Shown: positions 18,451 through 20,888 of the stretch, one piece after another | Layout of the letters: every line of letters starts with the position of its first letter | How positions within the stretch are numbered: the first letter of the stretch is position 1 | Assembly (NCBI RefSeq): GCF_004684205.1 | Contig: NZ_SRIO01000005.1 | Coordinates: 1 to 64,000, forward strand | Origin: Candidatus Macondimonas diazotrophica | Lineage (GTDB): Bacteria; Pseudomonadota; Gammaproteobacteria; UBA5335 | Direction: 5' to 3' | Length of the DNA stretch: 64,000 nt | Notes under the pieces: model-generated | The model's input: the letters and a program-made list of their open reading frames with translations, nothing else | Databases searched by the model: none | What the model was told of the DNA's origin: nothing | Program-made: the position numbers and the translations under genes

Positions 18451-18481
18451 AAAAAAACCCTGGCTGGAAAACCAGCCAGGG
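18451..18481 (-). terminator. Rho-independent terminator of the acyl-CoA dehydrogenase operon
   Basis: Perfect 10-bp stem (CCCTGGCTGG / CCAGCCAGGG, 18458-18467 and 18472-18481) with a 4-base loop. Read on the minus strand it is followed directly by seven U residues (the A-run 18451-18457). It ends transcription coming from 18531 and separates it from the diguanylate cyclase. Confidence 0.85.
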
Positions 18482-18496
18482 CATTTCGATCAAGCA

Positions 18497-18530: not shown

Positions 18531-19730
18531 TCAGCGCAGTTCCTTGGAGCTCTTGCCCAACACCTGACGGGCAACGATGAGCTGCTGAATCTGCTGGGTG
18601 CCTTCGAAGATATCCAGAATCTTCTGGTCGCGCGCCCATTTCTCCAGCAGATGCACTTCGCTGTAGCCCAGATTACGGGTCAGTTCGACGCAGCGCAGGA
18701 CGATGTAGTTGCCCACGCGCCCGGCCTTGGCCTTGCACATGGAAGCTTCCTTGGAATTGGGCTGACCGTTGTCAGCCATCCAGGCCGCGCGCATGGTCAG
18801 GAGATAGGCCGATTCCCACTCGGACTCCATCCACTCGATCTCGGCGCGCAGCGCATCATTGGTCCAACGGGACTTCTGGTACTCCAGAACGACGCCTTCC
18901 TTCGCCAGGAGCTCCTTGGTCAGATCCAGAGAAGCGCGGGACACGCCCAACGACATCGCGGCCACTGGTGGACGCGTGTTGTCGAAGGTCTGCATGACCC
19001 CACCGAAGCCTTCCTTCTTGTCCTTGATTTCCTCGGAACCGAGCAGGTTGTCCTTGGGAACGCGGACGTTGGTGAAGGTGATGGCAGCAGTATCCGACGC
19101 GCGGATCCCCATCTTCTTCTCCAGGCGCACCAGCTCGACACCGGGCAGATCTTTCGGCACCACGAACGACTTGATGCCCGCTTTGCCCTTGGTGGGGTCG
19201 ATGTTGGCCCACACCACCACGTGACTGGCACGGCCACCCGCGGTGATATAGATCTTTTCGCCGTTGATGATGTAGTCGTCACCATCTTTCTTGGCGGTGG
19301 TCTTGATGTTGCCGGCATCCGAACCAGTGCCCGGTTCGGTGATGGCCATGGCAGCCCAGCACTTACCGAACTTTTCCTTCTGCTCGGGTGTTCCGGCCGC
19401 CATGATGGCCGCGTTGCCCAGGCCCTGACCGGGGATGGCGAGGGCCAGACCCGCATCACCCCAGCACATTTCGGTCATGGCGGCGATGGCGATCATGTTG
19501 CCGCCATTCTTGACGCCGGGCTTGGCTTCCTTGTCCTTGCCGCCACCGCCCAGGCCACCCATGCCGCCGCCACCGCCGCCCAGCATCGACTTCAGCGCAT
19601 CGAGCTCCTTCGGGGGCGTGTGCTCGGCCTTGTCGTACTTGCGGGAAATGGGGCGGAACATGGACTTGGCCAGACCGTTGGCCATCTTCTGCATGTTCGC
19701 GACATTCGGCGGAAGTTCCAGATAAATCAT
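18531..19730 (-). CDS. Acyl-CoA dehydrogenase with a glycine-rich insert
   Basis: 399 aa. ATG at 19730 with GAGGA seven bases upstream. Middle and C-terminal domains are normal for the family: AITEPGTGSDAGNIKTTA (flavin and substrate contacts), INGEKIYITAGG, GIRASDTAAITFTNVRVP, and the C-terminal FEGTQQIQQL carrying the probable catalytic glutamate. The N-terminal helical domain is odd. After residue 50 there are 12 glycines in 14 residues (51-64), then a lysine-rich stretch, before NGGNMIAIAAMTEMCWGD. FadE-like oxidation of acyl-CoA to enoyl-CoA is expected; the substrate is unknown. It lies 30 bases downstream of a second, non-identical dehydrogenase gene, so a heteromeric enzyme is likely. 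Confidence 0.87.
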   Translation of the reverse strand: MIYLELPPNVANMQKMANGLAKSMFRPISRKYDKAEHTPPKELDALKSMLGGGGGGMGGLGGGGKDKEAKPGVKNGGNMIAIAAMTEMCWGDAGLALAIPGQGLGNAAIMAAGTPEQKEKFGKCWAAMAITEPGTGSDAGNIKTTAKKDGDDYIINGEKIYITAGGRASHVVVWANIDPTKGKAGIKSFVVPKDLPGVELVRLEKKMGIRASDTAAITFTNVRVPKDNLLGSEEIKDKKEGFGGVMQTFDNTRPPVAAMSLGVSRASLDLTKELLAKEGVVLEYQKSRWTNDALRAEIEWMESEWESAYLLTMRAAWMADNGQPNSKEASMCKAKAGRVGNYIVLRCVELTRNLGYSEVHLLEKWARDQKILDIFEGTQQIQQLIVARQVLGKSSKELR

Positions 19731-19760
19731 TGCGTCATCCTCAAAATCGGCATGTCGGGA

Positions 19761-20888
19761 TCAGATGTTGAAGCAGCCTTCCAGCACGGCCAGACCGCGC
19801 AGGTTGCGATACCACATCTCCTCGGAGTACTCGCGCAGGAAACCGGCGCCGCCGAGGATCTGCACCCCGTCGGTCCCCACCTGCATCATGCGCTCGGCGC
19901 AGTTGATGTAGGCAAGATGGGCCTGACGATGAAAATCCAGGCCGTTCTCGGCCTGGGCCGCAGCGCGCCAGACCATCAGACGCATGCCGTCCAGTTCGAT
20001 CGCGATGTTGGCCACCATGAACGCCACCGCCTGGCGATGGGAAATGGGCTCGCCGAACGCGATACGCTCGTTGGCGTATTCGGTCACATGCTCCAGTAAT
20101 GCCTGAGCGGTACCCACCGCGGCAGCACATGCGCCCAGACGCGACAGGTCGATCAGCCGCTGGTAATCGAAGGTTTTTTCGCCTTCGCCCAATTTGGCCG
20201 CGGCTTCGACGCGGACATTCTCGAGCGTCACCACGCCCAGCCCCAGGCCATGCAGACCCAGATAGCCCTGCGCCTGCACACTCAGACCTTGCGCACCTTT
20301 CTCGACCAGGAAGACCTGCGGGCCTTCTCCGTCGACGTCGGCCACGATCGCGAAGTGTTCGGCTGTGGTGGCCAGCGGAACCATCCCCTTGGTGCCGTTC
20401 AGGACATAGGCGCCGCCTTCGGCCACAGCCTTGGTCTGCAAGGCGTGCACGTCCGAGGTGGCGCGCGGCTCGCTGATGGCAATCGTCGCGGGCACAAACG
20501 CTTCACCCGCAAATATGGGCAGATACTTGGCCTGTTGTGCGGCCGAACCCTGATCGATCAGCAGATTCACGAAGCCGAGCGGTGCCAGAATGTGCAAGGC
20601 CAATCCCATGTCGCCCTTGCCCAGGTCTTCGGCGATCAGCACGTTCGAAACGGGGGAGCGGGGCGAGCCGGCGCCGCCATGATCTTCCGGCACGGGCAGC
20701 AGGGTAATGCCCAGTTCATGGGCCTGTTGCAGCATCTCGGCCGGGATTTCGTTGGATTCATCGATTGAGCGCGCTTGGGGCTTGATGACGGTTTCGGCGA
20801 AACGCTGCATGGTTTCGCGCGTGATGCGCTGTTCGTCCGTGAGGGTCAGATCGAACGGAAGCGCTGGTTTGGCGCCGGGCTGGGTCAT
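19761..20888 (-). CDS. Acyl-CoA dehydrogenase, C-terminally short partner subunit
   Basis: 375 aa from the ATG at 20888 (GAGGA seven bases upstream; a TTG eight codons earlier is less likely). All three domains are visible: an N-terminal helical part (LTDEQRITRETMQRFAETVIKP), the sheet domain (IAISEPRATSDVHALQTKA), and the C-terminal helices with YANERIAFGEPISHRQAV and QILGGAGFLREY. The chain stops at NLRGLAVLEGCFNI. Most relatives continue from the YEGT-type loop through roughly 15 more residues (..QRLVIARSLL). A glutamate is kept in LEG. First gene of a two-gene operon; with the following gene it may form a mixed oligomer in fatty-acid or side-chain beta-oxidation. No other beta-oxidation genes are nearby. 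Confidence 0.85.
   Translation of the reverse strand: MTQPGAKPALPFDLTLTDEQRITRETMQRFAETVIKPQARSIDESNEIPAEMLQQAHELGITLLPVPEDHGGAGSPRSPVSNVLIAEDLGKGDMGLALHILAPLGFVNLLIDQGSAAQQAKYLPIFAGEAFVPATIAISEPRATSDVHALQTKAVAEGGAYVLNGTKGMVPLATTAEHFAIVADVDGEGPQVFLVEKGAQGLSVQAQGYLGLHGLGLGVVTLENVRVEAAAKLGEGEKTFDYQRLIDLSRLGACAAAVGTAQALLEHVTEYANERIAFGEPISHRQAVAFMVANIAIELDGMRLMVWRAAAQAENGLDFHRQAHLAYINCAERMMQVGTDGVQILGGAGFLREYSEEMWYRNLRGLAVLEGCFNI

Follow-up and report, generated by a model that had tools for sequence, protein, structure and literature searches.

Acyl-CoA dehydrogenases (ACADs) of the ChsE type are described as alpha2beta2 enzymes in which each alpha-beta dimer has a single conserved Glu and a single FAD (PMC8399759), with the FAD at the interface and two sites per tetramer (PMC8399759, PMC11153573). 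In Mycobacterium tuberculosis, two ACAD genes are found in the order impC-pflA-fadE24-fadE23-fadB4 (PMC2834668), fadE24 has been placed in the SigE regulon (PMC9936260), and PMC11980559 refers by name to a 'FadE23-FadE24 complex'. Here we describe an ACAD gene pair in a stretch of 64,000 nucleotides of the Candidatus Macondimonas diazotrophica genome (hereafter, the window). We conclude with high confidence that the pair is a bicistronic operon for one heteromeric alpha2beta2 dehydrogenase of the ChsE/FadE kind, orthologous to mycobacterial FadE24-FadE23; it would be a two-subunit ACAD of a widespread, already known kind.

Both genes are encoded on the minus strand, head to tail and in the same frame, with a single TGA dividing them. 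The upstream gene (19764..20888, ATG at 20888, stop codon at 19761-19763) encodes a protein of 375 aa that we assign, on the basis of Pfam matches and retained cross-dimer FAD contacts, as the non-catalytic, FadE24-type subunit. The downstream gene (18534..19730, ATG at 19730, stop codon at 18531-18533) encodes a protein of 399 aa which, judging from Pfam and the invariant FAD and base residues, is the catalytic, FadE23-type subunit. The spacer between stop codon and next ATG (19731..19760) is 30 nt long, as had been noted previously from the sequence. About 50 nt past the downstream stop codon, on the same strand, lies a hairpin of 11 pairs followed by a T tract (18457..18482), which resembles an intrinsic terminator; it is the strongest of the three terminator-like sites found in the region, against 2.5 expected by chance, and is located at the expected place. 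Given this hairpin after the second ACAD gene, the pair probably constitutes a two-gene operon. The neighbors checked in the window encode a TetR regulator, a transaldolase, a GGDEF protein and a NERD/UvrD helicase, so the statement of the sequence-only reading that no beta-oxidation gene is close holds for these genes; it does not extend to some relatives, where genes for FadJ, a thiolase, a FabG4-type reductase or an acyl-CoA ligase are located within 6 kb of the pair.

The N-terminal, middle and C-terminal ACAD domains of Pfam were matched in both proteins. To compare the two subunits, both sets of homologues were aligned with MCAD and residues were counted at the FAD-contact and base positions established from MCAD structures; the counts, 92 upstream and 96 downstream homologues, are not fully independent, a few loci having been fetched twice. 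The downstream subunit is invariant (96/96) at the equivalents of T136, G141, S142, R256, E376, T378 and Q380 (MCAD numbering) and, across the same 96 homologues, lacks the cross-dimer residues R281, G285, Q292 and Q349, with G353 mostly gone as well. The upstream subunit is invariant at the equivalents of R281, F284, Q292, Q349, G352 and G353 (92/92); among its homologues, G141 is mostly replaced by L, T or R, S142 mostly by F, T168 mostly by P and T378 mostly by G, A, V or C, and R256 is retained in 71 of the 92. The catalytic Glu376 is thus conserved in one subunit only, in all 96 downstream proteins versus 60 of the 92 upstream ones, the remainder of which carry D, F, A, N, S or other residues at this position. 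The upstream protein of the window retains the motifs ERxAFG, HRQ and QILGG, that is, the cross-dimer FAD contacts, has lost most of the FAD cradle, and still has Glu and Arg at the base positions, without the cradle.

Judged by residue conservation, then, the cradle of the FAD site comes from the downstream subunit and the cross-dimer contacts from the upstream subunit, and neither would have a complete FAD site as a homodimer, unlike the MCAD and SCAD homotetramers. An alpha-beta dimer would contain exactly one complete flavin site and a homodimer of either subunit none. In the enzyme that we propose, the downstream subunit would supply the cradle for the flavin, the catalytic Glu (MCAD 376) and the Arg that partners it, and the upstream subunit, having lost its own flavin site, would be an obligatory dimer partner whose Arg281, Phe284, Gln292, Gln349 and Gly353 equivalents reach across and thereby close the downstream flavin site. 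From this arrangement we infer one FAD and one active site per alpha-beta dimer and two per tetramer. The published description of the alpha2beta2 dehydrogenases fits the pair in the window as far as can be told from sequence.

Reading the TGA between the genes as Trp yields a natural in-frame alpha-beta fusion of 785 residues with an 11-residue linker. The AlphaFold2 model of this fusion (22 paired rows) had a mean pLDDT of 84.1 and a pTM of 0.88, which indicates confident relative placement of the two halves but does not show a preference for this arrangement over homodimers. Both proteins keep the full three-domain ACAD fold in the model. In a Foldseek search with the fusion, each half matched ACAD chains, mostly single chains over half of the model, and these matches are no test of the interface. 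The proposal of a ChsE-like heteromer with shared active sites, raised in the sequence-only reading, is accordingly supported at the level of prediction by the complementary loss of flavin contacts, the adjacency of the genes, the fusion model and the synteny with FadE23-FadE24 described below.

The same reading had pointed to two oddities of the pair that it considered complementary, the short C-terminus of the upstream protein and a glycine-rich insert in the downstream one. The first is real: the upstream protein ends in ...RGLAVLEGCFNI (EGCFNI, 19764..19781), 5 residues beyond the position of MCAD Glu376, its match to the C-terminal ACAD domain of Pfam stops at model position 137/150, and in 92/92 homologues the protein stops at precisely this point, 5 residues past the Glu376 column. 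The C-terminus of the downstream protein, FEGTQQIQQLIVARQVLGKSSKELR, is complete as claimed, extending 23 residues beyond the Glu, the same distance as in all 96 homologues. The common truncation point is more than chance, and the identical end in 92 homologues rules out a frameshift or assembly error as the source of the short upstream C-terminus. The tail (T378, Q380 and the last helix) normally lines the FAD of the subunit to which it belongs. As the upstream subunit of the proposed enzyme would no longer bind a FAD itself, its tail would have become dispensable and then been lost. The glycine run, GGGGGGMGGLGGGG (residues 51-64 of the downstream protein, in the N-terminal helical domain; 19539..19580), does hold 12 Gly in 14 residues, compared with mostly 3-7 Gly in the richest 14 residues of homologues; it corresponds to residues 438-456 of the fusion model, where the pLDDT is below 50. 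A role as functional complement of the missing tail was rejected in view of its varying length and composition and its predicted disorder, and the run is best described as a predicted disordered loop specific to the lineage. As far as the alignments indicate, the true counterpart of the missing upstream tail is the set of ERxxFG, HRQ and QxxGG contacts that is missing from the downstream subunit.

The closest described relatives of the pair appear to be mycobacterial. In mycobacterial relatives, a gene for an impC-type phosphatase of the inositol-monophosphatase family (PF00459) is located just upstream of the pair; it was identified by Pfam in the mycobacterial-family loci L164 and L166 and by inspection of the N-terminus in L173-L176, and no pflA lies between it and the pair at these loci. 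Since this synteny matches the published M. tuberculosis order, FadE24 is the most likely counterpart of the upstream subunit and FadE23 that of the downstream subunit, a probable orthology to Rv3139/Rv3140 that is based on gene order, subunit order and family breadth. Like the pair in the window, FadE24-FadE23 (Rv3139-Rv3140) has the truncated non-catalytic subunit first and the catalytic subunit second; FEGTQQIQ and TFDNTRP are present in 19/19 of the mycobacterial-family catalytic subunits matched, and the 26 partners matched have the same short ending after EG as the upstream subunit of the window. The window differs in the lack of the impC-pair gene order, the GGDEF and transaldolase genes beside the pair, the glycine-rich loop of the downstream protein and a shorter upstream protein, with 375 aa versus about 455-485 aa in actinobacterial relatives. 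The upstream subunit of Actinobacteria and many Gammaproteobacteria (e.g., L161-L176) has an N-terminal extension of ~60-100 residues, which the protein of the window lacks.

When species genomes of bacteria and archaea were scanned with the downstream protein, in line with the suggestion of the sequence-only reading, 80 best loci were obtained, in 79 of which the partner lies directly before the catalytic gene; at the remaining one, the contig ends where the upstream partner would lie, so that the pair is adjacent at every locus with flanks. The labels of these loci include Gammaproteobacteria, Actinobacteria, Myxococcales, Bacteroidetes/Chitinophagales and Spirochaetota, among others. Within the class (274 genomes), the 7 genomes with a strong match to one subunit are also the 7 with a strong match to the other, and the catalytic subunit is present in 56/61 genomes of one mycobacterial family. 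Homologues of either gene that stand mostly alone were looked for among the scanned loci and the class genomes and were not found. At two loci (L006:1501-3969 and L022:6001-8456), the catalytic subunit is duplicated in tandem behind a single non-catalytic subunit. Distances for one subunit track those for the other (r = 0.78), a correlation that common descent by itself could also explain. With dN/dS versus relatives of 0.07-0.28 for the upstream and 0.03-0.13 for the downstream gene, both are under purifying selection.

The steroid ACADs ChsE4-ChsE5, ChsE1-ChsE2 and Tcur3481-Tcur3483 resemble the pair in consisting of two ACAD subunits with flavin contacts split between a catalytic and a non-catalytic one, and in the solved structure of a T. 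curvata ACAD (6wy8), the small subunit shows a matching pattern of residue split. PimC-PimD shares the large/small subunit architecture; the NCBIfam pimD and pimC models (TIGR03204/TIGR03203), however, scored only 81.6/51.4 bits for the upstream and 48.5/57.3 bits for the downstream protein, far under the cut-offs of 652.7 and 623.85, and other pairs of the Macondimonas genome are much closer to PimC/PimD. These PimCD-like pairs of the genome took the place of the ChsE catalytic subunits when base positions were compared: the pair in the window has Thr255 and Glu376, whereas the catalytic subunit of the PimCD-like pairs has Glu255 and Gly376. Position 255, in helix G, is the base site of IVD and LCAD. 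A tree of 40 rows places the two kinds of catalytic subunit in separate ACAD lineages, and holding them together was rejected by the AU test (p = 0.021), a mild result given that the grouping was picked with the tree already in view. The non-catalytic subunits of both kinds may have a single origin (92/94 support). The tail past the Glu376 position is 5 residues long in the window and 15-33 in the other non-catalytic subunits. Both subunits share the fold of MCAD, a homotetramer, and the downstream one also its catalytic Glu/Arg and FAD cradle, but neither subunit of the window has the complete FAD site of MCAD. We tentatively propose, at somewhat less than even confidence, that the FadE23/FadE24-type enzymes are a separate heteromeric lineage, present in at least five phyla, that evolved apart from PimCD/ChsE (base at 255) and serves general fatty acid oxidation rather than steroid breakdown; its catalytic subunit, MCAD-like with the base at 376, would have ceded the flavin contacts across the dimer to a partner devoid of the tail.

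These comparisons bear on an alternative that concerns the substrate only, namely a heteromer organized as proposed but acting, like ChsE4-ChsE5 or ChsE1-ChsE2, on a steroid or other polycyclic acyl-CoA. The characterized alpha2beta2 members do use steroid acyl-CoAs, and fadE24 belongs to a cholesterol-responsive gene set of M. tuberculosis; however, the base is located at MCAD 376 and not at helix G 255, the catalytic subunit belongs to another ACAD lineage, the genes nearby in some relatives serve the general beta-oxidation of fatty acids, and the pair occurs in Corynebacterium, Pseudomonas and Chitinophagales, so that we consider a steroid substrate unlikely. The proposed heteromer would most likely act on fatty acyl-CoAs, catalyzing the alpha,beta-dehydrogenation of acyl-CoA in beta-oxidation with transfer of electrons to ETF.

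Two other readings dispense with the heteromer. Most ACADs are homotetramers, and the full three-domain fold of both proteins would also be expected of two independent homo-oligomeric ACADs that prefer different substrates and have no more than an operon in common, but half of the needed flavin contacts are gone in each protein across all 92 and 96 homologues, and neither subunit is found without the other, which makes this explanation very improbable. Least probable of all is that the upstream gene encodes a pseudo-enzyme, a paralogue in decay or with a regulatory role that contributes nothing structural to the active site, as its truncated C-terminus, lost flavin cradle and catalytic Glu in only 60/92 homologues might suggest, given its dN/dS values, the absolute conservation of its cross-dimer flavin contacts and the confident alpha-beta fold of the fusion model.

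The Macondimonas genome (2.8 Mb) encodes further ACAD pairs, with the identical residue split. A second pair (G000:C1:262337-264721; L177:5305-7721, minus strand), with the split features in adjoining genes, has a catalytic subunit 42% identical to that of the window, and in the related genome G004 this second pair adjoins the studied one divergently (L178). Three more pairs are of the PimCD/IpdE kind (G000:C6:109560-111990, L184; G000:C6:24785-27164, L185; G000:C2:77894-80518, L183), one of which adjoins a thiolase-like lipid-transfer protein. In addition, on G000:C24 and G000:C14 (L186:4431-10743 and L187:3375-7237), ACAD-like genes lie beside genes for short repeated proteins (...LPDAIPTGSAMGVTHLALPGL...) and further genes of oxidoreductase-like character, in what look like duplicated clusters. 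The three PimCD/IpdE-type pairs suggest a specialized repertoire for acyl-CoA degradation. The genome also encodes thiolases and two ETF pairs, and the N-terminal domain of ACADs was matched 14 times in it; for 3-hydroxyacyl-CoA dehydrogenase (PF02737), only weak matches were obtained across the whole genome, none of them convincing, which reflects either an incomplete assembly or another type of reductase for that step.

As far as can be predicted, then, the pair in Macondimonas most likely serves as a fatty acyl-CoA dehydrogenase that feeds ETF. Complementarity at the level of residues shows that two separate ACAD genes, widely distributed as a pair, are to be treated as encoding a single enzyme, and knockout of a single gene or expression of either gene on its own would be misleading. 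In mycobacteria, catalysis is predicted to reside in FadE23, with FadE24 closing the cofactor site, and the predicted activity of a FadE23-FadE24 dehydrogenase would conflict with a remark in PMC11980559.
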